From the NCBI GenBank assembly GCA_903882725.1, contig CAIRYF010000295.1, positions 1 through 12,230 on the forward strand: a stretch of DNA of 12,230 bases. Reading direction: 5' to 3'. Positions within the stretch are counted from its first letter, which is position 1; each line of letters begins with the position of its first letter. A model generated the notes under the pieces. That model worked only from the letters and a program-made list of their open reading frames with translations. It made no database searches and was not told the DNA's origin. This DNA comes from an uncultured Simplicispira sp. (GTDB taxonomy: Bacteria; Pseudomonadota; Gammaproteobacteria; Burkholderiales; Burkholderiaceae_C). The translations under genes were made by a program, and so were the position numbers. This document shows, piece after piece, positions 1-12,230 of the stretch.

Positions 1-1021
1 TCATCGACTTGGTGGAACTGATCACCGTGTGGTGAGCGTGATCGCCCAGCGCCGCCTTGATGGCATTGGTTTCATTCAAGTCGCCCAGCGGCGTCGAGGT
101 GCCGTGGGCGTTGAGGTAATCGATCTGATCGGCATTGATGCCAGCGTTGCGCAGCGCGCTGATCATGGCGCGGCGTGGGCCATCCATGCTGGGCGCAGTC
201 ATGTGACCGGCGTCAGCACTCATGCCAAAACCGCACAACTCGGCATAAATTTTGGCACCCCGGGCTTTGGCGTGTTCGTACTCTTCCAGCACCATCACGC
301 CCGCGCCTTCGCCCAGCACAAAGCCATCGCGGTCTTTGTCCCACGGGCGCGAAGCGGCTTTTGGGTCGTCGTTGCGCGTAGACAGGGCGCGCATGGCAGC
401 AAAACCGCCCACGCCCAGTGGCGAGACTGTCGCCTCGGTGCCCCCGGCAACCATCACATCGGCGTCGCCGTATTCAATCATGCGACCGGCCTCACCAATG
501 CAGTGCAGGCCAGTAGTGCAGGCGGTGACTACCGCCAAGTTGGGGCCTTGGAAGCCAAAGCGCATCGACACCTGCCCGGCCACCATGTTGATGATGGAGG
601 CGGGAACAAAAAATGGCGTGATGCGCCGGGCACCCCGGCTGACGTACTCAGTGTGGGTGTTTTCAATCAGCGGCAAACCGCCAATGCCCGAACCGATAAC
701 GCAGCCAATGCGCGTGGCGAGTTCTTCGTCCAACGCTTCGCCAGTAGGCAGGCCCGCATCGGCCACCGCTTGGGCGGCTGCAGCCACGCCAAAATGAATG
801 AAAGAGTCCATGGTGCGCGCCTCTTTGGCGCTCATGTAGGAGCCCAGATCAAACCCTTTGACCTCACCGGCGATCTTGCAAGAGAAATCCGACGTGTCGA
901 ACTTGGTGATGAGATCAATGCCAGATTGACCGGCGAGGATATTGGCCCAAGCCTGCTCTACCGTGTTGCCCACGGGAGTCACACAGCCCAAACCAGTCAC
1001 GACAACACGACGACGACTCAT
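1..1021 (-). CDS. fabF: 3-oxoacyl-[ACP] synthase II (KAS II), 3'-truncated by window edge
   Basis: FabF condenses malonyl-ACP with an acyl-ACP, releasing CO2, in the elongation step of cytoplasmic type II fatty acid synthesis. It starts at ATG 1021 (N-terminus [20 protein letters not shown]), with AAGG about 7 bases upstream, and runs 340 codons to the left edge, so roughly the last 70 residues of a usual ~410-415 are missing. Visible motifs: nucleophile Cys168 in VTACTTGLH, the [20 protein letters not shown] loop (FabF-type rather than FabB-type), [17 protein letters not shown], and the first catalytic histidine His306 in [11 protein letters not shown]. The reading breaks off inside ISSTKSM, just before the TGH that carries the second catalytic histidine. 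It lies 48 bases downstream of acpP, the standard order. The truncation comes from the window and is not a lesion. Confidence 0.97.
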
Positions 1022-1069
1022 GCAATAACCTTGTTACTAAACCCGAAAGAAAAGGGGTTGTGTGCCCGC

Positions 1070-1408
<339 letters not shown>

Positions 1409-1412
1409 TTAA

Positions 1413-2171
1413 TTACATATACATACCGCCATTGACGTGCAACTCCTGCCCCGTCACATAGCCAGCCTCGGGCGAAGCGAGGTAAGCGACCGCGTGCGCA
1501 ATGTCAGCGGGCTTGCCCAAATGTCCCAGCGGAATCTGGCTTTGCAAGGCCGCTTGCTGCGCCTCGGGCAAATTGGCCGTCATATCGGTGTCGATAAAAC
1601 CGGGTGCCACGCAGTTGACAGTAATGCCCCGGCTGCCCAGCTCACGCGCCAAAGCACGCGCCATGCCGGCCACACCGGCCTTGGCGGCGGCGTAATTGGC
1701 TTGGCCGGGGTTGCCCGAGGCACCGACCACGCTGGTGATGTTGATGATGCGGCCAAAGCGCTGCTTCATCATCGGCTTGATGGCAGCGCGGCTGACGCGA
1801 AACACCGCCTTCAAATTGGTGTCGATCACCGCATCCCAGTCGTCGTCCTTCATGCGCATGGCCAAGGTGTCGCGGGTGATGCCAGCGTTGTTGACCAGCA
1901 CTTGCAGGCCGCCTTGCTCCTTGACGATGCGCTCGATCAGGGCGCTGACCGCTGCGCCATCATTGACGTCCAAACTAGCGCCTTGGCAACCAGCGTGGGC
2001 CGACAGCGCCTGCGTGATGCGCGCTGCGCCGTCTTCGGTGGTGGCGGTGCCAATCACTTGGTAGCCGCGTGCGGCCAGCTCCAGCGCGATGGCCGCGCCA
2101 ATACCGCGCGTGGCACCGGTAACCAGCGCTACGGGTGCTGCCGGTGTCGTTTTTGCAGTGGATTCGTTCAT
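1413..2171 (-). CDS. fabG: 3-oxoacyl-[ACP] reductase
   Basis: FabG catalyses the NADPH-dependent reduction of 3-oxoacyl-ACP to (R)-3-hydroxyacyl-ACP in every elongation cycle. The 252-residue protein is a classical short-chain dehydrogenase: nucleotide-binding TGATRGIG at 18-25, NNAG at 94-97, and the catalytic set Asn119, Ser147 (INITSVVG), Tyr160 and Lys164 (YAAAK). The C-terminal GYVTGQELHVNGGMYM is typical of FabG. Length is a few residues over the ~244-247 norm because of an N-terminal extension before PVALVTG. Its ATG overlaps the fabD stop by 4 bases (ATGA), indicating translational coupling, and AAGGA lies inside the end of fabD. AcpP follows after 103 bases. Confidence 0.98.
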   Translation of the reverse strand: MNESTAKTTPAAPVALVTGATRGIGAAIALELAARGYQVIGTATTEDGAARITQALSAHAGCQGASLDVNDGAAVSALIERIVKEQGGLQVLVNNAGITRDTLAMRMKDDDWDAVIDTNLKAVFRVSRAAIKPMMKQRFGRIINITSVVGASGNPGQANYAAAKAGVAGMARALARELGSRGITVNCVAPGFIDTDMTANLPEAQQAALQSQIPLGHLGKPADIAHAVAYLASPEAGYVTGQELHVNGGMYM

Positions 2172-3127
2172 GCCAACAATTCCTTGACTTCGTTGAGTGT
2201 GGCGCTGTCGTACAGCGCAGCGCCGACCAATTGAGCATCAATGCGGCGCACCAAACCGGCCAGCACTTTGCCAGGGCCGCATTCGATGACATGGGTGATG
2301 CCACGCGCCTTGAGCGCTTGCACACATTCGACCCAGCGCACCGGGCCAAAGGCTTGGCGGTACAGCGCGTCGCGGATGGCGTCGCCATCTTGCTGCACGG
2401 CCACGTCGATGTTGTTGAGTACCGGAATTTGCGGCGCGGCCAGCGCGGTAGCGGCCAGCGCTGCGCGCAGCTTTTCGGCCGCAGGTGCCATCAGGCTGGA
2501 GTGAAACGGTGCCGACACCGGCAGTGGCAGGGCGCGCTTGGCTCCGGCGGCTTTGAGCGCTTGGCAGGCTTTCTCGACCGCCGCTTTGCTGCCGGCAATT
2601 ACCGTTTGCGCCGGGTCGTTGAAGTTGACTGCTTCAACCACTTCAAGGCCATTTGCGGCGTTTTCGGCCATAGCCCGCGTCACTTCTGCGCAAACAGCTA
2701 TCACTTTTGCAGCATCCAAGCCCAAAATTGCCGCCATTGCGCCGGTGCCAACCGGCACGGCTTCTTGCATGGCTGCGGCGCGCAGGCGCACCAGCGGCGC
2801 GGCTTGGGCCAGCGTCAACACACCAGACGCCACCAGCGCCGAATACTCGCCCAGCGAGTGCCCGGCCACGGCGGCGGGCAGCGCGCCGCCGTCGCTGCGC
2901 CACACGCGCCACGCGGCCACGCCAGCCACCAACATCACCGGCTGGGTGTTGGTGGTCAGCGCCAGCGCCTCTTTGGGGCCGTCTTGGATCAGGCGGGCGA
3001 TGTCTTCGCCCAGCGCATCAGAGGCTTCTTGCAGCGTCTGCACCACTGCCGGGTGATCGCCCCAGCCGTTCAACATACCAACCGCCTGCGAACCCTGGCC
3101 CGGAAAGACAAAAGCAAAAGACTTCAT
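2168..3127 (-). CDS. fabD: Malonyl-CoA:ACP transacylase
   Basis: FabD transfers malonate from CoA to AcpP, supplying the extender unit for FabH and FabF. From ATG 3127 (MKSFAFVFPGQGSQ) the protein has 319 residues, close to the usual ~310. It shows the oxyanion-hole GQGSQ (Gln11), nucleophile Ser91 in GHSLGEYSAL, the substrate-carboxylate arginine Arg116 in VRLRAAAMQ, and catalytic His209 in PFHSSLM. NFNDPAQTVIAG and IECGPGKVLAG are also standard. A TTG at 3143-3145 in frame would add six residues that lack family resemblance, so ATG 3127 is preferred. No good ribosome-binding site precedes it. It follows fabH after an 85-base AT-rich gap and overlaps fabG by 4 bases. Confidence 0.97.
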   Translation of the reverse strand: MKSFAFVFPGQGSQAVGMLNGWGDHPAVVQTLQEASDALGEDIARLIQDGPKEALALTTNTQPVMLVAGVAAWRVWRSDGGALPAAVAGHSLGEYSALVASGVLTLAQAAPLVRLRAAAMQEAVPVGTGAMAAILGLDAAKVIAVCAEVTRAMAENAANGLEVVEAVNFNDPAQTVIAGSKAAVEKACQALKAAGAKRALPLPVSAPFHSSLMAPAAEKLRAALAATALAAPQIPVLNNIDVAVQQDGDAIRDALYRQAFGPVRWVECVQALKARGITHVIECGPGKVLAGLVRRIDAQLVGAALYDSATLNEVKELLA

Positions 3128-3212
3128 GCGATAAATAAGAGGCAAATAATGGAAAAAAACTCAAAATATGGATGAAATCGGGCTATAGCCCTTTATCCAC
3201 CTGCGCTTTAAG
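3128..3212. other. AT-rich fabH-fabD intergenic element with GGGCTATAGCCC palindrome
   Basis: This 85-base gap is markedly AT-rich against its surroundings. It contains the perfect 12-base palindrome GGGCTATAGCCC (3180-3191), and GCTTTAAGC, a smaller dyad, at 3205-3213 running into the fabH stop codon. The motif order (GGGCTATAGCCC, CTTTAT, GCGCTTTAAGCTAC) resembles, from memory, short intergenic sequences scattered through Comamonadaceae genomes. No second copy is present here, so repeat status cannot be shown. It could instead hold an internal fabD promoter, though no convincing -35/-10 pair was found. Confidence 0.35.
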
Positions 3213-4208
3213 CTACAACTTTAGGAGCACTGCACCCCAAGTAAAGCCGCCGCCAACGCCTTCAAGCAGCAGTGTTTCACCCGCTTTGACCTGGCCCGAG
3301 CGCACCGCGCAGTCCAGTGCCAGCGGAATCGACGCCGCCGAGGTGTTGCCGTGCTGACCCACAGTGACCACCACCTTGTCCATCGACAGCTTGAGCTTGC
3401 GCGCCGTGCTTTGCATGATGCGGATGTTGGCTTGGTGCGGAATCAGCCAATCAATATCGGCCTCAGTCATCCCCGCCTTGGCCAATGTGGCGTGCGCGGC
3501 GCTTTCGAGCAGGCCCACGGCCAGCTTGAACACCGCTTGGCCGTCCATGGTCAGCAAAGGCGTGCCAGTGATCTGCCCGCCCGAAACATGGCCGGGCACG
3601 CACAAAATATCGACGTATTTGCCATCGGCGTGCAAGTCGCTGGCCAAAATGCCCGGCTCGTCCGACGCCTCCAGCACCACGGCGCCAGCGCCGTCGCCAA
3701 ACAGCACGCAAGTGCCCCGATCGGTGAAGTCGAGCAGGCGGCTAAAAATTTCTGAGCCCACCACCAGCGCCCGGCTGGCAGCGCCAGCGCGAATCATGGC
3801 GTCGGCCACCGTCAGCGCATAAATAAAGCCGCTGCACACCGCCTGCACATCAAACGCCGGACAACCGTTGGCACCCAGCTTGTTTTGCAAAATCGCCGCC
3901 GTCGAGGGAAACACCATGTCCGGCGTCGAAGTGGCGACGATGATCAGGTCAATCTCTTGCGGCTGGCGCCCTGCTGCTTCCAAGGCTTTGCGCGCGGCGT
4001 CCAACGCCATGTCGCTGCAAGCGACATCGGGGGCGGCAAAGTGGCGGGCAGAAATACCAGTGCGCGCGACGATCCAGTCGTCCGAGCTGTCCACACCGCG
4101 TGCGGCCAAATCGGCCACCAAGTCGGCGTTGGTCACCCGGCGCGCTGGCAAATGGCTGCCAGTACCAGTGATGCGTGAATAAGGTGAGGAACGTGAGTTG
4201 CGTGTCAT
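3213..4208 (-). CDS. fabH: 3-oxoacyl-[ACP] synthase III (KAS III)
   Basis: FabH starts fatty acid synthesis by condensing acetyl-CoA (or another short acyl-CoA) with malonyl-ACP. The 331-residue protein has the thiolase fold with the KAS III Cys-His-Asn triad: Cys125 in [12 protein letters not shown], His258 in [12 protein letters not shown], and Asn288 in [15 protein letters not shown]. The glycine-rich C-terminal [15 protein letters not shown] is standard. The N-terminus ([21 protein letters not shown]) is about 10 residues longer than in E. coli FabH, but ATG 4208 overlaps the plsX stop by one base (TGATG), which supports it. Internal starts giving SRITGTG would be non-ATG. The gene ends at TAG 3213-3215, on the edge of the AT-rich element before fabD. 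Confidence 0.97.
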
Positions 4209-5260
4209 CAGAGTGGCGCTGGCGTCGCGCCGCGGTCTGCAGGTGCATCCAAGGGCAGCAAAAAAGGCGCTGCACTGGTGATGCGGTTGCGGACACGGTC
4301 CAGCAAGTTGTTGCGGGCTGCATCATACGCGCGGCCCATTGCCTGGACAAAGGCCACTTCATCGGCCGATCCGTGGCTCTTAAACACCAAGCCGCGCAGC
4401 CCCAGCAGCGCCGCACCGTTGTAGCGCCGGTGATCTACCCGTTTTTTGAATGCAGATAGCACCGGATAAGCGACGATGGCTGATATTTTGGTAAACAGAT
4501 TGCGCGAAAACTCTTGCTTTAAAAAGCCGCCCACCATGCCAGCCAAGCCTTCGCTGGCTTTGAGGGCGACGTTGCCAACAAAGCCGTCGCAGATCACGAT
4601 GTCTGCCGTGCCTTTGAAGATGTCATTGCCTTCGACATTGCCAACAAAGTTAATAAAGCCCGACTGGCCAGCTTGGCGCAGCAATTCGCCCGCCTTCTTG
4701 ATCACGTCGTTGCCCTTGATGGCTTCTTCGCCAATATTGAGCAAGCCCACGGTGGGGTTCTCGTTGCCCTTGAGCACCGAATCGAGCGCCGAGCCCAGCA
4801 CCGCAAATTCAAGCAAATGCTGCGCCGTGCTGTTGACGTTGGCCCCCAAGTCCAGCACCGTGGTCGATCCGCCTTTGGCGTTGGGCAACTGGCCGGCAAT
4901 GGCCGGGCGGTCGATACCGTCCAAGGTTTTGAGCACATAGCGGGCAATCGCCATCAGCGCGCCGGTGTTGCCCGCCGACACCGCCGCCGCCGCTTTGCCG
5001 CTTTTGACTTGCTCGATGGCAACGCGCATCGACGAGTCTTTTTTGCGCCGCAAAGCCACTTCCACCGGGTCGTCCATGGTCACAACTTGGCTGGCTGGTA
5101 CCAGCGTGGCGCGCGCGTGGACAAAGCCTTGCAGTGCCTCGGGCAAGCCGACCATGAGCAACTGCGCGTCGGCATGGTCATCCAAAAACTGACGGCACGC
5201 CGCCAGCGTGACGCGGGGGCCGTGGTCGCCTCCCATGCAATCAACAGCCAGAGTAATCAT
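4208..5260 (-). CDS. plsX: Phosphate acyltransferase PlsX
   Basis: PlsX converts acyl-ACP and phosphate to acyl-phosphate, the acyl donor for PlsY in phospholipid synthesis; it is a peripheral membrane enzyme. From ATG 5260 the protein has 350 residues and begins [15 protein letters not shown], the family signature. Further matches are [67 protein letters not shown] and [19 protein letters not shown]. An in-frame TTG at 5288-5290 would add ten residues not seen in relatives. No Shine-Dalgarno precedes the ATG, and a TATAAC hexamer ends 7 bases before it. A terminator lies between rpmF and this gene, so plsX probably begins its own transcript with fabH, fabD, fabG, acpP and fabF behind it. Confidence 0.97.
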
Positions 5261-5267
5261 GGAAGGT

Positions 5268-5273
5268 GTTATA
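5268..5273 (-). promoter_or_regulatory. plsX: Candidate plsX -10 element
   Basis: The minus strand reads TATAAC, five of six matches to the -10 consensus, ending 7 bases before the plsX ATG. Transcription would start at or beside the start codon and give a leaderless or nearly leaderless message, in keeping with the missing Shine-Dalgarno. No good -35 is visible at 16-18 bases. A promoter is needed here because of the terminator at 5309-5348. Confidence 0.3.
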
Positions 5274-5308
5274 GGCCGCCGCACGGCCAAAATTAAAACT
5301 CAATGCAT

Positions 5309-5348
5309 AAAAAAAGGCCCGCGCTACAAATTCAGTAGCAACGGGCCT
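5309..5348 (-). terminator. Rho-independent terminator downstream of rpmF
   Basis: Read on the minus strand: AGGCCCG, two unpaired T, GCTAC, a 7-base loop, GTAGC, one unpaired G, CGGGCCT, then a run of seven T. The outer 7-bp GC-rich stem pairs 5342-5348 with 5315-5321 and the inner 5-bp stem pairs 5335-5339 with 5323-5327. Stem, loop and T-tract have the textbook form, and it lies 26 bases after the rpmF stop in the right orientation. It should end or attenuate yceD-rpmF transcription before plsX. Confidence 0.88.
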
Positions 5349-5356
5349 CGGCGGTC

Positions 5357-5382
5357 GAAGCTTCTGACAGGTGTCAGGCTTC
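5357..5382 (-). other. Second hairpin across the rpmF stop codon
   Basis: GAAGC (5357-5361) pairs with GCTTC (5378-5382), and CTGACA (5364-5369) with TGTCAG (5372-5377). The only interruption is a TT bulge at 5362-5363, and a few central bases form the loop. The structure contains the rpmF stop (5374-5376) and lies 8 bases before the terminator hairpin. It has no T-run of its own. It may protect the 3' end of the rpmF message or assist termination. Confidence 0.5.
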
Positions 5383-5556
5383 AGCCTTGTTCTTCAGAAC
5401 TTGGCGACCACGGTAAAAGCCGTTAGGGCTGATGTGGTGGCGCAGGTGGATTTCGCCGGTGGTGGGTTCGACCGCAATGCCGGGCACCGTGATGGCGTTG
5501 TGCGAGCGGTGCATACCGCGCTTGGAAGGGGACTTTTTGTTTTGCTGAACAGCCAT
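5374..5556 (-). CDS. rpmF: 50S ribosomal protein L32
   Basis: RpmF is a small basic protein of the large ribosomal subunit. The 60-residue product begins [20 protein letters not shown], the family hallmark, and continues through [20 protein letters not shown] and [15 protein letters not shown] 5556 is chosen for this N-terminus and for AGGAG (5563-5567) 6 bases upstream; a longer in-frame reading from 5652 has no family support. It carries none of the cysteines found in zinc-binding L32 forms, so this is the zinc-free type. It follows yceD after 101 bases, as in E. coli, but is separated from plsX by an intrinsic terminator. Confidence 0.98.
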
Positions 5557-5640
5557 GATCGGCTCCTGGTCTGAAAAGGGGTGGGTAAAAACGCGATCAG
5601 CCCATTCGAAAGACACAAGGAGATTCGCGCGAAGCTCTCG

Positions 5641-5646
5641 ATTATA
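5641..5646 (-). promoter_or_regulatory. rpmF: Candidate rpmF promoter -10 (TATAAT)
   Basis: A perfect TATAAT lies on the minus strand just past the yceD stop codon, about 85 bases upstream of the rpmF ATG. No strong -35 is seen at 16-18 bases upstream (that stretch falls in the end of yceD), and there is no TGn extension directly before the hexamer. A separate promoter would suit a ribosomal protein needed in larger amounts than YceD. Confidence 0.4.
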
Positions 5647-5657
5647 TCTCAAGCTAT

Positions 5658-6234: not shown

Positions 6235-6852
6235 ATGCACGAATCTGCTTCTCCACAACTCCCCCCGTCTGCGCAGCGCGCGCTGGTCTTGGGCTCAACT
6301 TCGCCGTATCGACGCCAATTGCTAGAGCGCTTGCGCTTGGCCTTCACAGTTTTTGCCCCGGACGTGAACGAAACCGCGCTGCCCCACGAAGCCCCGCGCG
6401 ACTTGGCGCTGCGCCTGGCGCTGGCCAAAGCCCGAGCCGTGGCCGCGCAGCACCCCGGCACCATCGTCATCGGCTCAGATCAAGTGGCCGATTTGAACGG
6501 CCAGCCGCTGGGCAAACCCGGCACGCACCAGCGCGCCACGGCGCAACTGCGCCAAATGAGCGGCCACAGCGTCGTCTTTCAAACCGCTGTCGCCGTGGTC
6601 TGCCCAGCGACGGGCTTTGAGCAGGTAGATTTAGCACCGGTCGCGGTGCGCTTTCGTGTGCTGGACGACGCTGAAATTGAGCGCTACCTGCGTGCCGAGC
6701 AACCTTACGACTGCGCTGGCAGCGCCAAAAGCGAAGGCTTGGGCATCAGCCTGCTTGACGCCATCGACAGCGACGACCCCACCGCGCTGATTGGCCTGCC
6801 GCTGATTCGCACCTGCCGGATGCTGCGCGCTGCGGGATTGGTGCTGCCATGA
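6235..6852 (+). CDS. yceF: Maf family nucleotide pyrophosphatase, YceF type
   Basis: Maf proteins hydrolyse non-canonical nucleotide triphosphates to monophosphates; the E. coli YceF subgroup prefers 7-methyl-GTP. The 205-residue protein has the family blocks: LVLGSTSPYRRQLLERL (18-34) binding phosphate, APDVNET, LALAKARAV, GSDQV with Asp82 as the likely catalytic base, GKPGTHQRATAQL, and CAGSAKSEGLGISLLDAI followed by DPTALIGLPL. GSDQV rather than GADT, and the location beside yceD-rpmF-plsX, both point to YceF rather than YhdE. ATG 6235 follows a weak AAGAGA site. The last codons overlap the next gene by 4 bases (ATGA), implying translational coupling. Confidence 0.93.
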   Translation: MHESASPQLPPSAQRALVLGSTSPYRRQLLERLRLAFTVFAPDVNETALPHEAPRDLALRLALAKARAVAAQHPGTIVIGSDQVADLNGQPLGKPGTHQRATAQLRQMSGHSVVFQTAVAVVCPATGFEQVDLAPVAVRFRVLDDAEIERYLRAEQPYDCAGSAKSEGLGISLLDAIDSDDPTALIGLPLIRTCRMLRAAGLVLP

Positions 6853-7646
6853 ATGCCATCAACGCCTCGACCAATAAAAAATTGGGCACGCTGTATTTGG
6901 TGCCCGCGCCGCTGGACTTTGGCTGCGATGTGCATATGCCGCTGCAAGAATCACTGCCTGAGGGCACGCTGACCACAGCGGCGCGCCTAACGCACTGGGT
7001 CTGCGAAAACGCCAAAAGCGCCCGCGCTTATTTGAAACGGGTGGATGCCCTGTACCCGCTGGCCGCGCCACTGCAAGAGCAAACCATCACCGAACTGCCG
7101 CGCGAAGTACACAAAAAAGGCGACCACGGCGGCAAAGGTTCGGCGGCGTTTGACGCGCGCCCGCTGCTGGCGGCCGCGCTGGCCGGGCACGACATCGGCT
7201 TGGTCAGCGAGGCCGGTATGCCCGCCGTGGCCGACCCCGGCAGCTCGGTGGTGCGCGCCGCGCACGCGCTGGGCATCGCCGTGGTGCCGCTGGTCGGGCC
7301 GGTGTCGCTGCTGCTGGCCTTGGCCGCCAGCGGCCTGAACGGGCAAAACTTTGCCTTCGTCGGCTATGTGCCACAAGACAGCGACGAGCGCACCCAGCGC
7401 ATCCGCGCGCTGGAAGCGCTGGCCCTCAAAACCGGTCAGACCCAGTTGTTTATCGAGACGCCCTACCGCAACGCTGGGCTGCTGCAAGCCTTGCTGCATA
7501 CGCTCAACCCGAACACGCGCCTGTCGGTCAGCAGCGGCCTGACGCTGACCAGCAGCACCACACGCAGCCAGAGCGTGCAACAGTGGCGGCAAAAACCCGG
7601 CGGGCCGGACAAAAACACGCCCGCAGTATTTGCCATTGGCACTTGA
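6849..7646 (+). CDS. SAM-dependent methyltransferase, RsmI-like (tetrapyrrole methylase fold)
   Basis: The 265-residue protein belongs to the COG0313/tetrapyrrole-methylase superfamily that includes RsmI, the 16S rRNA C1402 2'-O-methyltransferase. Visible blocks: GTLYLVPAPL (13-22), GHDIGLVSEAGMPAVADPG (113-131), VVPLVGPVSLLLALAASGL (145-163) and FAFVGYVP (168-175), then QLFIETPYR (199-207). RsmI has an equivalent SDAGTP loop, so SEAGMP suggests a paralogue with a different target. The N-terminal part, with CDVHMPLQESLP, also differs from RsmI. Target unknown; I give no symbol. Its ATG overlaps the yceF stop by 4 bases, and this pairing, as I recall, is common in Burkholderiales. It converges on apbE with 48 bases between stops. 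Confidence 0.85.
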   Translation: MNAINASTNKKLGTLYLVPAPLDFGCDVHMPLQESLPEGTLTTAARLTHWVCENAKSARAYLKRVDALYPLAAPLQEQTITELPREVHKKGDHGGKGSAAFDARPLLAAALAGHDIGLVSEAGMPAVADPGSSVVRAAHALGIAVVPLVGPVSLLLALAASGLNGQNFAFVGYVPQDSDERTQRIRALEALALKTGQTQLFIETPYRNAGLLQALLHTLNPNTRLSVSSGLTLTSSTTRSQSVQQWRQKPGGPDKNTPAVFAIGT

Positions 7647-7694: not shown

Positions 7695-8678
7695 CTACGG
7701 CTGTAGCACACCATCAACGATGGAGATTTGCGTAAACGCCTCGCCATCGTCGCCAGCATCCAATCCACCCACCTCTCGCAGCACCAATAACGCCGTCATG
7801 CCCTGCTGCTGCGCCAGCGCGGTGGCCGCTGGCGCGCCCATCACCAGCAAGGCGGTGGCCCACGCGTCGGCCAACATACACGACGGCATCACCACCGTGA
7901 CCGAGGCCAGGCGGTTGTCCACTGGCCGCCCGGTGGCCGGGTGCATGGTGTGTGCATAGTGTTGGCCTGCCAATTCAAAATAATGGCGGTAGTCGCCCGA
8001 GGTGGCAATGGCGGCATCGGCCAGCTCCATCACGCCCATGGCTTCGCGCACGTGGCGCACCGGTTTTTCAATGGCCACAGCCCATGCTTGGCCGCCCGGC
8101 TTGCTGCCTTTGGCACGCATTTCGCCGTCAATGCCGACCAAATAGCGCGTGATACCCAAGCCATCCAGGCAAGCGGCCAGCGCATCGACGCCGTAGCCCT
8201 TGGCAATGCCCGACAAGTCCAGCACAACGGCGCTGTGCTTGCGCAAGCGCTGCTGGGCGGGGTCGAGCTCCAGCACCTCGTGCGCAGCGCGGCGCGGGCG
8301 CTGGCCCAGTGCGCGAATGTGCTGCGCATCCGGTGCATCCCCGGTCGGGCCAAAGCCCCACGCGTTGACCGCATCGCCCACACCGATATCAAACGCGCCG
8401 CCAGACTCGCGCCCGACGCGCAGGGCAGCATCCAACACCGTCCACAGCTCGGGCGGCACACGGTGCCACTGCCACAGCGGCGCGGCGTTGAGGCGGCTCA
8501 GGTCGGAGTCACTCTTCCAGGTAGACATTTGCCGGTCTACCCGATCCACCGTCGCCAACAGCGCCGCGCCGATAGCACCCAAGTCGATACCAGCGGGGGC
8601 AAAAAACACAGCGCTGTAGCGCGTGCCCATGGTGGCACCATTGAGCACATGGCGCTGCAAGGGCGATTCAGAAGACAT
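7695..8678 (-). CDS. apbE: FAD:protein FMN transferase (ApbE/Ftp family)
   Basis: ApbE enzymes move FMN from FAD to a Thr or Ser of a target protein, making a covalent phosphoester flavin. From ATG 8678 the protein has 327 residues. It shows GATMGTRYSAVF near the start, GAFDIGVGDAVNAWGFGP (94-111), LDLSGIAKGYGVD (153-165), YLVGIDGEMRAKG, SGDYRHYFE (227-235), YAHTMHPATGRPV, and the metal-site ADAWATALLVMG (Asp271, Thr275). A GTG at 8684 could add two residues, but a TGA at 8703-8705 blocks any longer reading, so it has no signal peptide or lipobox, unlike many exported ApbE proteins. It overlaps the reductase gene by 11 bases and is the last gene of that operon; the DUF2271 protein upstream is its likely substrate. 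Confidence 0.94.
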   Translation of the reverse strand: MSSESPLQRHVLNGATMGTRYSAVFFAPAGIDLGAIGAALLATVDRVDRQMSTWKSDSDLSRLNAAPLWQWHRVPPELWTVLDAALRVGRESGGAFDIGVGDAVNAWGFGPTGDAPDAQHIRALGQRPRRAAHEVLELDPAQQRLRKHSAVVLDLSGIAKGYGVDALAACLDGLGITRYLVGIDGEMRAKGSKPGGQAWAVAIEKPVRHVREAMGVMELADAAIATSGDYRHYFELAGQHYAHTMHPATGRPVDNRLASVTVVMPSCMLADAWATALLVMGAPAATALAQQQGMTALLVLREVGGLDAGDDGEAFTQISIVDGVLQP

Positions 8679-10890
8679 CTTCACGGTAACGTCCTTGCGT
8701 CTTCAAGAGGGCCACACTCACGCCCAAGGGTGCCAGCACTTCGTCCAGCGCCTGTGCAATGTTTTTCGCCATCGCCCGGCTGCCGCACACCAGCACTTGG
8801 CCATCGCTTTGCAGCAGCTGGCGCAATTGCACGGCATTGCCCAGCACGCGGTCTTGCACATAGGCACCGTCCTGCACACGCGAAAACGCCGCGTGCAAAC
8901 CCGTCAAACGGCCATCGGCCAAATAGGCGTTCAGTTCGGGCTGGTACAAAAAGTCAGAGGCCGGGTCGCGCCCGCCCCAATACAAATACATCGGGTGTTT
9001 GCCAGTGTTGTTGCGGATAAACCCCGCCAGCGGCCCAATGCCGGTGCCCGAGCCAATCAAAATCACCGGTGCTTTGCCAGCAGCCGGCCGAAAGTCCGGG
9101 TGCAGCTGGACAAACGCCTCCATGCGCCCACCCAACGGCAAGCCGTGCAGAAACTCCGAGCACAGACCACCGGGCAGCTTGCGCACACAAATTTCCAAGA
9201 AACCGTCACGCGACTGGCTGGCCAATGAATAAAACCGCGGCACCGCACTGCCGGGCGGCACCACGCCGAGCAAATCGCCCACTTCAAAATGCGGCAGCCC
9301 GCCAGCACCCAGCAGGCGCAGGAAAGCACCTTTCAGGCCCGGCTGCGGCGGCGCAGCAAAGCGCAACACGCTGGTCGGTGCCTGCACCGCTTCGCCGTAG
9401 TCGGCGCGTTCCAGCAGCACAAAAGCGTCGGTGCGCGGGCGTTTTGGGGTGTAGACCAAGTTCAACTCTTGGCCAATCAGCTGACCGACAGCGTTGCCCC
9501 AGCGCGTAAAGGCCTGGCCCGATTGCCGGTCGATGGTGTCCAGCTCCAGCAACGGGCGCCCGCCTTGCGCCAGCAGCGCGGCCTGAACGTCGCAGGCAAA
9601 TTGGCAAAACTGCGGAAACTGCCGGTCGCCAAACCCCAGCACGGCAAAACCGATGCCAGAAGGCAACTTTGCCTTGTCCAGCCGCGCTAAAAATTGCTGC
9701 GCCGAGCTGGGTGCATCGCCGTCACCATAGGTGGCCGTCAGGATAAAAAGCCGCTGGGCTTGCGGATAGGCACCCGTCCACTGGTTCAGCGCCGCCGTAT
9801 GTACGCGCAGACCCGCTTGGCGCAGGGCGTCGTGCAGCGTGTTGGCAAAACCCCAGGTGCTGTTGTTTTCGCTGCCCACCAAAATCACCGTATCAGCCAA
9901 GGCAGCGGCGCTGTTGCCCACCATGCGCGGCATCGACTGGCGTCGCTGCCACCACGTCAGCGCCCCGGTGGCACTCAAAAACGGCACACTCAGCGCGCAC
10001 AGCCCCAGCAGCAGGGCCAACCACCACAGCCCTTGGCCGGTGTGCAATTGGTAGATCAGCTCATAAACCTTGCGCCAGCCGCCATACGGCAAATAAGACA
10101 AAAACTCTCCGGTGCTGGGGTTGATATAGCCCTCGCCTTGCTGGGTGGCCAGCGAATAAAAGCCCCCAGCGTCGCCCGGACTGGGGTAGACCAGTTCGCG
10201 CAGGTCGTTGACATCGGTGGCCCGCAGCACCGGCACAGCCGCCACGGGCATCGCAGGCCCGTCCACCACCTGTGCCGGAAACTCTGGCTCGTCCTCCATA
10301 CCATCGGTAATCAAGGCAAAGGTGGCCGCCGACAGGTACACGCCGGTCAGCGCCGACAGCAGCACCCCCAGCAGCACCACACGCCCCACTTGGGTATGCC
10401 AACGCTGCACAAAATTGCCGCGCAGCGGATCGGCCAGATGGCGCCAGCCGCCCACCCGCTTGAGCAGCAACACCGTGCCCGACACCGACAGCACCAACAT
10501 GGCCAGCGCCAGCAGCCCCGACACCACCCGCCCGGGCGTCTCCAGCAGCCAAGAGCGATGCAAATCCTTCATCCAGCGCAACAGCGGCGCGACAAGGTAC
10601 GGCGCCAATGCTTGGCCGCTGTGCGGATCGACGCGCACCACGCCCGGCTGCCCATTTTGGCTGTAGTAGACGATGACCGAGCCGTTGGGGCTGCGCTGAA
10701 TCTGCTCGACCCCCGGGTACTGCTGCGCCACCCGACCAGCCAGCACCGCCACGCTGATCTGGCCGTCTGCGGGCAGCGCGGCACCGCGCCGCTCCAGCGC
10801 CGGTTCAAGCGACAGCACGGCACCACTGAGTGCCAGCACCACCACCAGCAGGGCCACCCACAAGCCAATAAGGGAATGGAGTTTTCGCAC
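8668..10890 (-). CDS. PepSY transmembrane / flavodoxin / FAD-NADPH reductase fusion
   Basis: This predicted inner-membrane flavoreductase should carry NADPH electrons towards the periplasm. From GTG 10890 it has 740 residues; TTG 10896 is an alternative and a TAG lies 12 bases beyond it. Four membrane helices lie near 11-28, 121-143, 170-193 and 288-311, with two periplasmic PepSY-like loops (VVRVDPHSGQAL, GYINPSTGEFLSYLP). A flavodoxin domain (about 333-468; ILVGSENNSTWGFA, LTATYGDGDAPSS, VLGFGDRQF) precedes a CysJ-like FAD/NADPH part (about 485-740): RFYSLAS, GGLCSEFLHG, VILIGSGTGIGPLAGF, LVCGSRAMAKN and C-terminal RYREDVF. His5 and His165 fall on the cytoplasmic face, His111 and His283 on the periplasmic face, and may bind haem. 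It lies 56 bases after the DUF2271 gene and overlaps apbE. Confidence 0.9.
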   Translation of the reverse strand: MRKLHSLIGLWVALLVVVLALSGAVLSLEPALERRGAALPADGQISVAVLAGRVAQQYPGVEQIQRSPNGSVIVYYSQNGQPGVVRVDPHSGQALAPYLVAPLLRWMKDLHRSWLLETPGRVVSGLLALAMLVLSVSGTVLLLKRVGGWRHLADPLRGNFVQRWHTQVGRVVLLGVLLSALTGVYLSAATFALITDGMEDEPEFPAQVVDGPAMPVAAVPVLRATDVNDLRELVYPSPGDAGGFYSLATQQGEGYINPSTGEFLSYLPYGGWRKVYELIYQLHTGQGLWWLALLLGLCALSVPFLSATGALTWWQRRQSMPRMVGNSAAALADTVILVGSENNSTWGFANTLHDALRQAGLRVHTAALNQWTGAYPQAQRLFILTATYGDGDAPSSAQQFLARLDKAKLPSGIGFAVLGFGDRQFPQFCQFACDVQAALLAQGGRPLLELDTIDRQSGQAFTRWGNAVGQLIGQELNLVYTPKRPRTDAFVLLERADYGEAVQAPTSVLRFAAPPQPGLKGAFLRLLGAGGLPHFEVGDLLGVVPPGSAVPRFYSLASQSRDGFLEICVRKLPGGLCSEFLHGLPLGGRMEAFVQLHPDFRPAAGKAPVILIGSGTGIGPLAGFIRNNTGKHPMYLYWGGRDPASDFLYQPELNAYLADGRLTGLHAAFSRVQDGAYVQDRVLGNAVQLRQLLQSDGQVLVCGSRAMAKNIAQALDEVLAPLGVSVALLKTQGRYREDVF

Positions 10891-10946
10891 CCTCAAGCCC
10901 CCGCTCTACCAGTCGCCCTGCGGGCATTCGTCACCATGGCACCGAC

Positions 10947-11417
10947 TCACATATCAAAGCTGAACGACTGGATATAGCCGCGCCCCGCCGTCGGCTTGCC
11001 CTTGTCTTTGGTGGTCAGCGGCACGCGCAGCTCGGCAGGGTTGTCGCGCTGCTTTTCCACGGCGGTGTCAATGCGGATTTCGTAACCGGCGTCGATCAGT
11101 GCATCAGCCAATTGGACCGTCACCTTCAAGGTTTTACCGCTGCCGACGCTGGCACCGCTGACGCCATCAAACTCGCTGGCCTTCAGGCCGCTGCCGCGCG
11201 CCCAGTCGCGCAGGTGTTTGTAGTACTTGGCCTTTTTTCCGGCCACCCACAGCGTTTTTTGGTATTTTCCGGCAGTATCTGTGACATAAATAGCCAGATA
11301 CGCCCCATCACCGGCGTAGTTTTGCAATTGGGTCGTCAAAGTCACCGGGCGCGCTTGCAGCACACCAGGCAACGCCAAAACACCCGCCAAGCAAATGGAA
11401 TAAGTCCATTTTTTCAT
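10947..11417 (-). CDS. Secreted DUF2271 protein with ApbE-type flavinylation motif
   Basis: The 156-residue product starts MKKWTYSICLAGVLALPG, a Sec signal peptide with probable cleavage after VLQA (about residue 22), leaving a periplasmic domain of about 134 residues. Family features of DUF2271 are the YLAIYVTDTAGKYQKTLWV strand region, YYKHLRDWAR, and the C-terminal GRGYIQSFSFDM. At 84-90 it reads DGVSGAS, matching the Dxx(S/T)GA(T/S) sequence at which ApbE attaches FMN, with Ser90 as candidate acceptor. ATG 11417 is fixed by the signal peptide and a perfect GGAGGT (11425-11430) 7 bases upstream; a longer in-frame reading to 11498 is unlikely. It is followed by the membrane reductase and apbE. 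Electron-carrier function is inferred. Confidence 0.9.
   Translation of the reverse strand: MKKWTYSICLAGVLALPGVLQARPVTLTTQLQNYAGDGAYLAIYVTDTAGKYQKTLWVAGKKAKYYKHLRDWARGSGLKASEFDGVSGASVGSGKTLKVTVQLADALIDAGYEIRIDTAVEKQRDNPAELRVPLTTKDKGKPTAGRGYIQSFSFDM
11136..11168 (-). other. Putative FMN attachment site in the DUF2271 protein
   Basis: These codons give D84-G-V-S-G-A-S90-V-G-S-G94. NqrC/RnfG-type flavoproteins carry FMN on the last Thr of D..(S/T)GAT; here a serine (codon 11148-11150) takes that place, a substitution compatible with phosphoester attachment. With apbE in the same operon this is the best substrate site in the window. No similar motif was seen in the reductase or the small PepSY protein. 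Confidence 0.65.
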
Positions 11418-11457
11418 TGCCAACACCTCCAAAAATGATTTCGTAAAACCATTGTGG

Positions 11458-11483
11458 CATTCACCGGATGAATGTCTGGTGAA
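11458..11483. promoter_or_regulatory. Interlocked inverted repeats upstream of the DUF2271 gene
   Basis: CATTCA-CCGGA-TGAATG (11458-11474) is a perfect 6-bp inverted repeat with a 5-base spacer. It overlaps TTCACC (11460-11465) paired with GGTGAA (11478-11483). The dyads lie 41 bases before the DUF2271 ATG in the 93-base gap after the small PepSY gene. They look like a transcription-factor operator; an RNA hairpin is also possible. No convincing -35/-10 pair was found next to them. Confidence 0.35.
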
Positions 11484-11510
11484 CGGTCTGCACCGCACCG
11501 ACGGGCGGCT

Positions 11511-11828
11511 TTAGAGGTTGTCTGGCCCTTGCCCGTGGCGCTGCTCGCCACGGTGGCTATTTTTTATTTTCATTTTTTGCAGACGCAGCGAATCGGGCGC
11601 GTATTGGGCTTTAAAGCGGTTGCCCTCGGCGTCAATGCCGCGCACCTCGTAGCAGCCGTCATCTACCTTGATGCGCTGAACTTGCCAGCCCTGCTGCTCT
11701 AGTTGCTGGCGCAACACCTCGCGCGGTTGCCAGTCTTGCACGGGCGAGTTGCACTGGCTATCGGCCCATGCGCCGCCACCGGTCAGCAAAGCCACCAGTA
11801 CGACCCCCGCAAAAATAGGTATTTTCAT
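11511..11828 (-). CDS. Small secreted PepSY domain protein
   Basis: The 105-residue product begins with a clear Sec signal peptide, MKIPIFAGVVLVALLTGGG, with cleavage likely after AWA (residue 22). The mature part is one PepSY-like unit: WQPREVLRQQLEQQGWQVQR, then DDGCYEVRGIDAEGNRFKAQY, followed by a basic, polar tail. Two cysteines (Cys26, Cys59) could form a disulfide in the periplasm. ATG 11828 is preceded by GGAGG 9 bases upstream. It sits between the ZIP gene (64 bases) and the DUF2271 gene (93 bases) on the same strand, and the PepSY-type loops of the membrane reductase suggest it works with that protein. PepSY was first described as a peptidase inhibitor domain, but the redox context argues for a different job. 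Exact role unknown. Confidence 0.82.
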   Translation of the reverse strand: MKIPIFAGVVLVALLTGGGAWADSQCNSPVQDWQPREVLRQQLEQQGWQVQRIKVDDGCYEVRGIDAEGNRFKAQYAPDSLRLQKMKIKNSHRGEQRHGQGPDNL

Positions 11829-11892
11829 GATGCATTTCCTCCGGTTGAGGCTACAGCATATTCCTCAGCATCCCTTGCCATGCAAAGGCCAG

Positions 11893-12230
11893 TCAGTGCC
11901 CACCGTGCGCCAACCCGCTGACCAGCGTTACCACGCCCATGCCGGTCAACAGCATGGCAATTTGGACAGCGGTTTCGCGCGCTGACAAGCGCCGTTGCAG
12001 TTGCGGAATCAAATCTGCCAACGCCACGTAGACAAAGCTGCTGGAGGCCACCACCAAAAAGTACGGCAGCCAGTCGTGCAGACGCTCCAACAAAAAATAC
12101 CCAGCCACGCCGCCCAGCGCCGTCACTGCCCCGGCCAACGACACTTTAAGCAGCGCCATGCGCCGGTTTGCGCTGCTGTGCAGCAGCACCACCAAATCGC
12201 CCATGTGGTGCGGCACCTCGTGCGCCAACA
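11893..12230 (-). CDS. ZIP family divalent metal transporter, 5'-truncated by window edge
   Basis: Only the C-terminal ~112 residues are present; the N-terminal half lies beyond the right edge. ZIP transporters import divalent metals such as zinc, iron or manganese across the inner membrane. The fragment opens with HEVPHHMGDLVVLLHSS, which matches the second metal-binding helix (HExPHxxGD) of ZIP proteins, followed by membrane helices at ALLKVSLAGAVTALGGVAGY, WLPYFLVVASSSFVYVALAD and IAMLLTGMGVVTLVSGLAHG. The metal-ligand segment SFVYVALADLIPQL is also typical. It ends HGGH at TGA 11893-11895. Same strand as, and 64 bases upstream of, the small PepSY gene, so it may belong to the redox operon. 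The metal cannot be deduced from this part. Confidence 0.9.
   Translation of the reverse strand, partial: LAHEVPHHMGDLVVLLHSSANRRMALLKVSLAGAVTALGGVAGYFLLERLHDWLPYFLVVASSSFVYVALADLIPQLQRRLSARETAVQIAMLLTGMGVVTLVSGLAHGGH

Follow-up and report, generated by a model that had tools for sequence, protein, structure and literature searches.

A probable PepSY-like flavinylation cassette whose ApbE lacks a hydrophobic leader

Introduction

In the PepSY-like flavinylation clusters described by Meheust et al. 2021 (PMC8238504), a PepSY_TM protein with an NAD-binding domain occurs with apbE and with a DUF2271 protein bearing an [ST]GA[ST] motif. The DUF2271 protein of Amantichitinum ursilacus was flavinylated with its cognate ApbE, and flavinylation was lost when the target threonine was replaced (PMC8238504). 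The Caulobacter CC_3059-3063 operon (PMC3751524) similarly has DUF2271, ApbE and a sulfite-reductase-like flavoprotein annotated with heme. Here we describe a candidate system of this kind in a stretch of 12,230 nucleotides (nt; the window) from an uncultured Simplicispira sp., whose right end coincides with the end of its contig (C295 of genome G000, which is 68% complete). Its four genes, referred to as the cassette, encode a PepSY_2 protein, a DUF2271 protein, a fusion of a PepSY_TM membrane part with a flavodoxin and reductase module, and ApbE. The system is otherwise known in kind; the leaderless ApbE encoded within the operon is a new observation.

Like the clusters of Meheust et al., the cassette combines PepSY_TM (PF03929/PF16357) with ApbE and with a DUF2271 protein that bears [ST]GA[ST] and has the hydrophobic leader of an exported target; the original prediction had pointed to genome surveys linking ApbE to DUF2271 and PepSY genes, and rightly so (cf. 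PMC8238504). It differs from the published clusters in its PepSY_2 protein, which goes unmentioned in the cited text, in its leaderless ApbE, and in the absence of a DUF4198 or TonB gene from the window. The Caulobacter operon, in contrast, has DUF4198 and a transporter and is Fur-regulated, and PepSY_2 is not listed in the text cited. The siderophore reductase FoxB (PDB 7abw), which carries two hemes, resembles the membrane part in predicted fold and has histidines in matching segments, whereas the solved FoxB chain of 382 residues (aa) is without a flavodoxin/FNR module. CysJ and P450 reductase share that module and an NADPH-site stretch, but the window's module is fused to a membrane part and falls far below the CysJ family cut-off (NCBIfam TIGR01931, 145.6 bits against 668). 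Many cassette relatives also resemble DbfQRS and PA2658-BqsSR (PMC12714742, PMC4682146) in that a two-component pair adjoins a small PepSY gene and a TTAAG(N)6TTAAG-like box is present. The window contig shows neither the pair nor the box, and the relatives, unlike the published systems, join this module to an electron-transfer operon.

Results and discussion

The cassette is a recurrent operon

Relatives of the fusion were collected, and the best 80 of 166 matches were kept as loci. DUF2271 was present in 79 of the 80, PepSY_2 in 69 and apbE in 61, counts affected by contig ends that truncate some of the loci (L102, L076 and L096 lie close to ends). By their records, the loci come from Burkholderiales, Thermomonas, Luteimonas, Lysobacter, Pseudomonas, Halomonas, Marinobacter and others. 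A second cassette type, with the same four genes and a fusion about 45% identical, was found at 13 further loci (10 distinct) in genomes of the window's order, where DUF2271 was detected in 39 of 300 genomes. Because the same genes recur across the loci and in the second type, the four-gene core is, as judged from gene content, a real and widespread operon. In a tree, the window fusion grouped with that of Burkholderiales REEB378 (support 1.0) and then with Luteimonas and Thermomonas (0.84), far from the second type, which is present elsewhere in 12 of 25 same-genus genomes.

Sequence matches of the fusion covered PepSY_TM (E 1e-41), Flavodoxin_1 (2e-15) and NAD_binding_1 (8e-12), and its cytosolic module matched sulfite reductase flavoprotein and P450 reductase chains. 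A model of the membrane part from 64 sequences (pLDDT 88.7, pTM 0.82) predicts a FoxB-like fold, and four FoxB-type heme-ligand histidines are found at His5, His111, His165 and His283, the place of His165 being deduced and not itself profile-aligned to FoxB. A full-length model from 16 close sequences (pLDDT 60, pTM 0.33) was discarded.

These features suggest, with a probability of roughly 0.78, that the four-gene cassette, probably an insertion, is a PepSY-like flavinylation electron-export system. The cytosolic FNR module would oxidise NADPH and pass electrons via flavin adenine dinucleotide (FAD) to the flavin mononucleotide (FMN) of the flavodoxin, from which they would reach two bis-histidine hemes in the membrane part and then FMN bound covalently to the exported DUF2271 protein. 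The flavinylated protein would then pass them to an acceptor in the periplasm, Fe(III) or a ferric complex being the likeliest, and ApbE would load FMN onto DUF2271. This path to DUF2271, from NADPH through FAD, FMN and a membrane cofactor, had been proposed in the original prediction; the domains, the [ST]GAS site and the four histidines agree with it, and we consider it quite likely. We infer the order and direction of transfer, and NADPH rather than NADH as donor.

DUF2271 is the only one of the four proteins of the cassette to contain D-x-x-[ST]-G-A-[ST] (residues 84-90), and [ST]GAS is kept in all 93 aligned DUF2271 rows, the window's included. N-terminal hydrophobicity in these rows ranges from 1.66 to 3.08 and is thus at least 1.66 in 93/93, which indicates a hydrophobic leader. 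Against PDB sequences, the best DUF2271 matches had E values of 0.16 or worse. PepSY_2 conserves Cys26, Cys59 and D-D-G-C-Y across 82 homolog rows, with leader hydrophobicity of 0.49-2.88.

The operon ApbE lacks a leader

The window ApbE has the ApbE domain (PF02424) of the classical ApbE lipoproteins, together with relatives of solved structure, and is without their N-terminal export or lipoprotein signal. This absence was overlooked in the original prediction and emerged from N-terminal hydrophobicity. Leaders were scored as the highest 13-residue hydrophobicity over every ATG, GTG or TTG start up to 60 residues from the conserved core, with a threshold of 1.5; the calls are thus a hydrophobicity measure and not SignalP predictions. 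None of the 61 operon ApbEs scored reached the threshold (62 were found, L034 being unscored); their median was -0.31 and the window's score -0.62, and the highest, L037, lay just under the threshold at 1.47. None of the 10 distinct ApbEs of the second cassette type reached it either. All 19 exported-type controls did, namely a second ApbE of G000 with a Tat-like leader (1.52) and, in 18 of 18 searched genomes whose locus has no apbE, the best ApbE elsewhere (2.13-3.17), with a lipobox-like motif in 17 of the 18. A start codon yielding V/M-K near the core was present in 61/61 operon ApbEs. When the whole open frame was counted, including stretches ahead of any start, the L038 ApbE scored 2.12.

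In the window's order, ApbEs that adjoin a longer type of DUF2271 are mostly, not all, leaderless, since 2 of 21 reach 1.5 (L003 and L018); the L020 protein shows a lipobox-like match, but its hydrophobicity is low. At L027-L030, DUF2271 and ApbE matches share a single long frame whose start is leader-like, an arrangement other than that of the separate leaderless ApbE. At L034:12207-13188, the apbE of a Thermomonas metagenome-assembled genome is split over two frames, possibly by an assembly error.

Unusually, the operon ApbE seems, from its N-terminus, to stay inside the cell, which in this family of operons poses the puzzle of a flavin-attaching enzyme apparently across the membrane from its presumed substrate. 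Since ApbE is without a leader though the presumed substrate is exported, the flavin may be attached before export. Tentatively, and with somewhat less than even confidence, we suggest that the leaderless ApbE loads FMN onto DUF2271 in the cytosol and that the flavinylated protein is then exported. If true, no flavin export to the periplasm would be needed, and the accepted order of export and then flavinylation would be reversed. These operons could show whether a covalent flavin can be joined to a protein ahead of its export. A literature search on cytosolic flavinylation and ApbE leaders did not find this idea in print, which is weak evidence only. A review names cytosolic ApbEs in Klebsiella, for a soluble fumarate reductase, and in two trypanosomatids. 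It speaks against the suggestion that Meheust et al. call their DUF2271-linked ApbE signal-peptide-truncated (PMC8238504), so that exported DUF2271-linked ApbEs do exist.

A second explanation is that the operon ApbE acts on a cytosolic protein, while a different ApbE, an exported one, flavinylates DUF2271. The second ApbE of G000, with its Tat-like leader, could play this role, as could the best ApbEs, with strongly hydrophobic leaders, found elsewhere in all 18 searched genomes with an apbE-less locus. We consider this unlikely: apbE accompanies DUF2271 in 61 of the 80 loci, the target motif is confined to DUF2271 within the cassette, and 7 of 35 genomes with an operon apbE gave no other ApbE match (the completeness of these genomes is not stated). 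In G339, two ApbE matches are pieces of one gene.

The acceptor

Fe(III) is slightly favoured as the main acceptor because of the regulation of homologs, VIT1-type genes, and Ferric_reduct/FAD genes near the loci. VIT1-type genes directly follow apbE in 18 of the 80 loci, all of them Pseudomonas. A census of downstream genes scanned 86 of 147 listed and returned VIT1 in 3/86, an undercount because many of the 61 left out were from Pseudomonas. In 8 of the 80 loci, the cassette has a Ferric_reduct plus FAD-binding protein gene as a neighbour (L105:7644-8954 and L048:12463-13746, identified by Pfam; L044, L051, L092, L096, L109 and L110, by clustering, L092 being a fragment).

Instead of iron, the system might reduce copper that is needed to assemble oxidases, or act on some other substrate in the periplasm. 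CrpH, a PepSY_TM protein, is described as supporting heme-copper oxidases, the cassette of L042 (Pseudomonas fluorescens FW300-N2E3) has a gene for a heavy-metal P-type ATPase at a distance of about 1.8 kb, and P-type ATPase genes made up 4 of the 86 scanned downstream genes. The VIT1-type neighbours point the other way, as does the homologous Caulobacter operon, which is iron-regulated and has an EDTA phenotype, and a non-iron acceptor appears doubtful.

A two-component pair and box in relatives

Just upstream of the cassette, a gene of a divergent histidine kinase/OmpR-type regulator pair was present in 49 of 79 scorable loci (assigned by clustering, with Pfam of one pair). The box TT[CA]AG-N6-NT[CA]AG (TTCAG-N6-GTCAG-like) was found upstream in 51/79 loci against 8 of 914 control windows, and in 43/49 loci with the pair versus 8/30 without it (Fisher p 7e-8, which is optimistic because the loci are related). 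Small PepSY genes are reported near two-component genes more than 60 times as often as expected, and BqsS is described as iron-responsive, but a DbfQRS reporter in Vibrio is described as unchanged by iron. The exact form of the known BqsR box, TTAAG-N6-TTAAG, occurs at L056 and L090, with no pair flagged at either. The same scan found no box in the window, L119 or L120, and no two-component genes were among the window's open reading frames (ORFs), the window ending inside the ZIP gene. In G000, which is 68% complete, the best match to the L037 regulator is 40% identical. The pair and candidate box offer a route to the signal, and hence to the acceptor; they and the location of ApbE are worth following.

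Gene layout and the ZIP neighbour

The original prediction had described five same-strand genes, ZIP among them, as a candidate electron-transfer operon beside a metal transporter. All five ORFs were found on the minus strand, ZIP only as its 3' end (Table 1); the conserved linkage it called for held for DUF2271, the fusion and apbE, which co-occur across loci, and failed for ZIP on synteny and cassette flanks. The starts of the fusion and of DUF2271 were set by homology. Gaps are 64 nt (ZIP to PepSY_2), 93 nt (PepSY_2 to DUF2271) and 56 nt (DUF2271 to the fusion), and the fusion and apbE frames overlap by 17 nt.

Table 1. Positions of the cassette genes, their parts and their neighbours in the window.
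Feature	Position	Strand	Basis
ZIP metal transporter gene, 3' end (last 111 codons)	11893-12228	-	PF02535 E 1.6e-11
PepSY_2 protein, 105 aa, hydrophobic leader	11511-11828	-	PF13670 E 4e-26
DUF2271 protein, exported, 156 aa, ATG start at 11417, presumed covalent-FMN carrier	10947-11417	-	PF10029 E 3e-38
Candidate ApbE target motif DGVSGAS, DUF2271 residues 84-90	11148-11168	-	motif scan and alignment
PepSY_TM/flavodoxin/FAD-NAD(P)H reductase fusion, 740 aa, GTG start at 10890	8668-10890	-	Pfam
Membrane part of fusion, residues 1-328, FoxB-like; His5, His111, His165, His283	9907-10890	-	alignment and model
Cytosolic flavodoxin and FNR-type module of fusion	8671-9885	-	Pfam, structure-chain matches
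apbE, FAD:protein FMN transferase, 329 aa, GTG start, without hydrophobic leader	7695-8684	-	PF02424 E 2e-82
TP_methylase-family methyltransferase gene, left edge of insertion gap	6849-7646	+	PF00590 E 1e-9, synteny

For synteny, the ZIP ortholog of L119 (275 aa, PF02535 E 9e-31) and the window's TP_methylase gene were searched in 60 relatives, 25 of them same-genus genomes. Twenty-three of the latter were compared, G308 (cassette adjoining ZIP) and G319 (no ZIP match) being set apart. In 21 of the 23, ZIP and TP_methylase are convergent neighbours whose stops lie -4 to 164 nt apart, the exceptions being G302 (882 nt) and G315 (5,018 nt). The G315 gap (L137:1117-5838) is filled by an unrelated block of TctC, CoA-transferase (CoA_transf_3), acyl-CoA dehydrogenase and LysR genes, so this gap accepts insertions. 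In the window the cassette occupies it, with the methylase stop at 7646, the apbE stop at 7695, the PepSY_2 start at 11828 and the ZIP stop at 11893; G319 has the left cassette junction and G308 the right one, with 15 nt from ZIP stop to PepSY_2 start. Because ZIP abuts TP_methylase without a cassette in 21/23 same-genus genomes, ZIP is probably a resident neighbour that was there first, and the cassette was probably inserted between the two genes in one sub-lineage of the genus. Insertion behind a resident ZIP gene, preferred here over repeated loss, is the simplest reading, and a tempting metal-transporter link can thus be an accident of insertion.

In plants, a ferric reductase and a ZIP transporter work as a pair. 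By analogy, the cassette and ZIP could form one unit in which ZIP takes up the Fe(II), or other reduced metal, produced by the reductase; the shared strand, the short ZIP-PepSY_2 gaps of the window and G308, and VIT1-type genes at the opposite operon end in 18/80 loci would suit this, but the cassette-free ZIP-methylase pairs, the unrelated block in the same gap of G315, and the failure of the window's ZIP stretch (C-terminal 111 aa as query) to find a relative in the flanks of the 80 other cassettes make it improbable. ZIP was accordingly rejected as a system component on synteny and on the outcome of that flank search, its link with the cassette being incidental. The same strand and short gaps make cotranscription likely now, and the cassette may share the ZIP transcript. 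PF02535 was matched in 23 of 33 genomes of cassette loci, known by contig only, with not all hits placed relative to the cassette. A crude scan for Fur or Zur boxes ahead of ZIP in 24 same-genus upstream sequences gave no convincing site, the best Fur match being 13/19 and the Zur patterns having no hits.

A motif like GGCCTnTAGGCC.TACAG..AAGCGC...AGCTATG, common to many of the genus, is present where the ZIP gene starts (L119 about 2927-3200; upstream of ZIP in L122-L144). An inverted copy was seen by eye further upstream in L119, and the motif resembles a dispersed repeat forming a gene start. At the other end of the window (2-5652), ORFs read by eye follow the usual fatty-acid cluster order of fabF, acpP, fabG, fabD, fabH, plsX and an rpmF-like gene.

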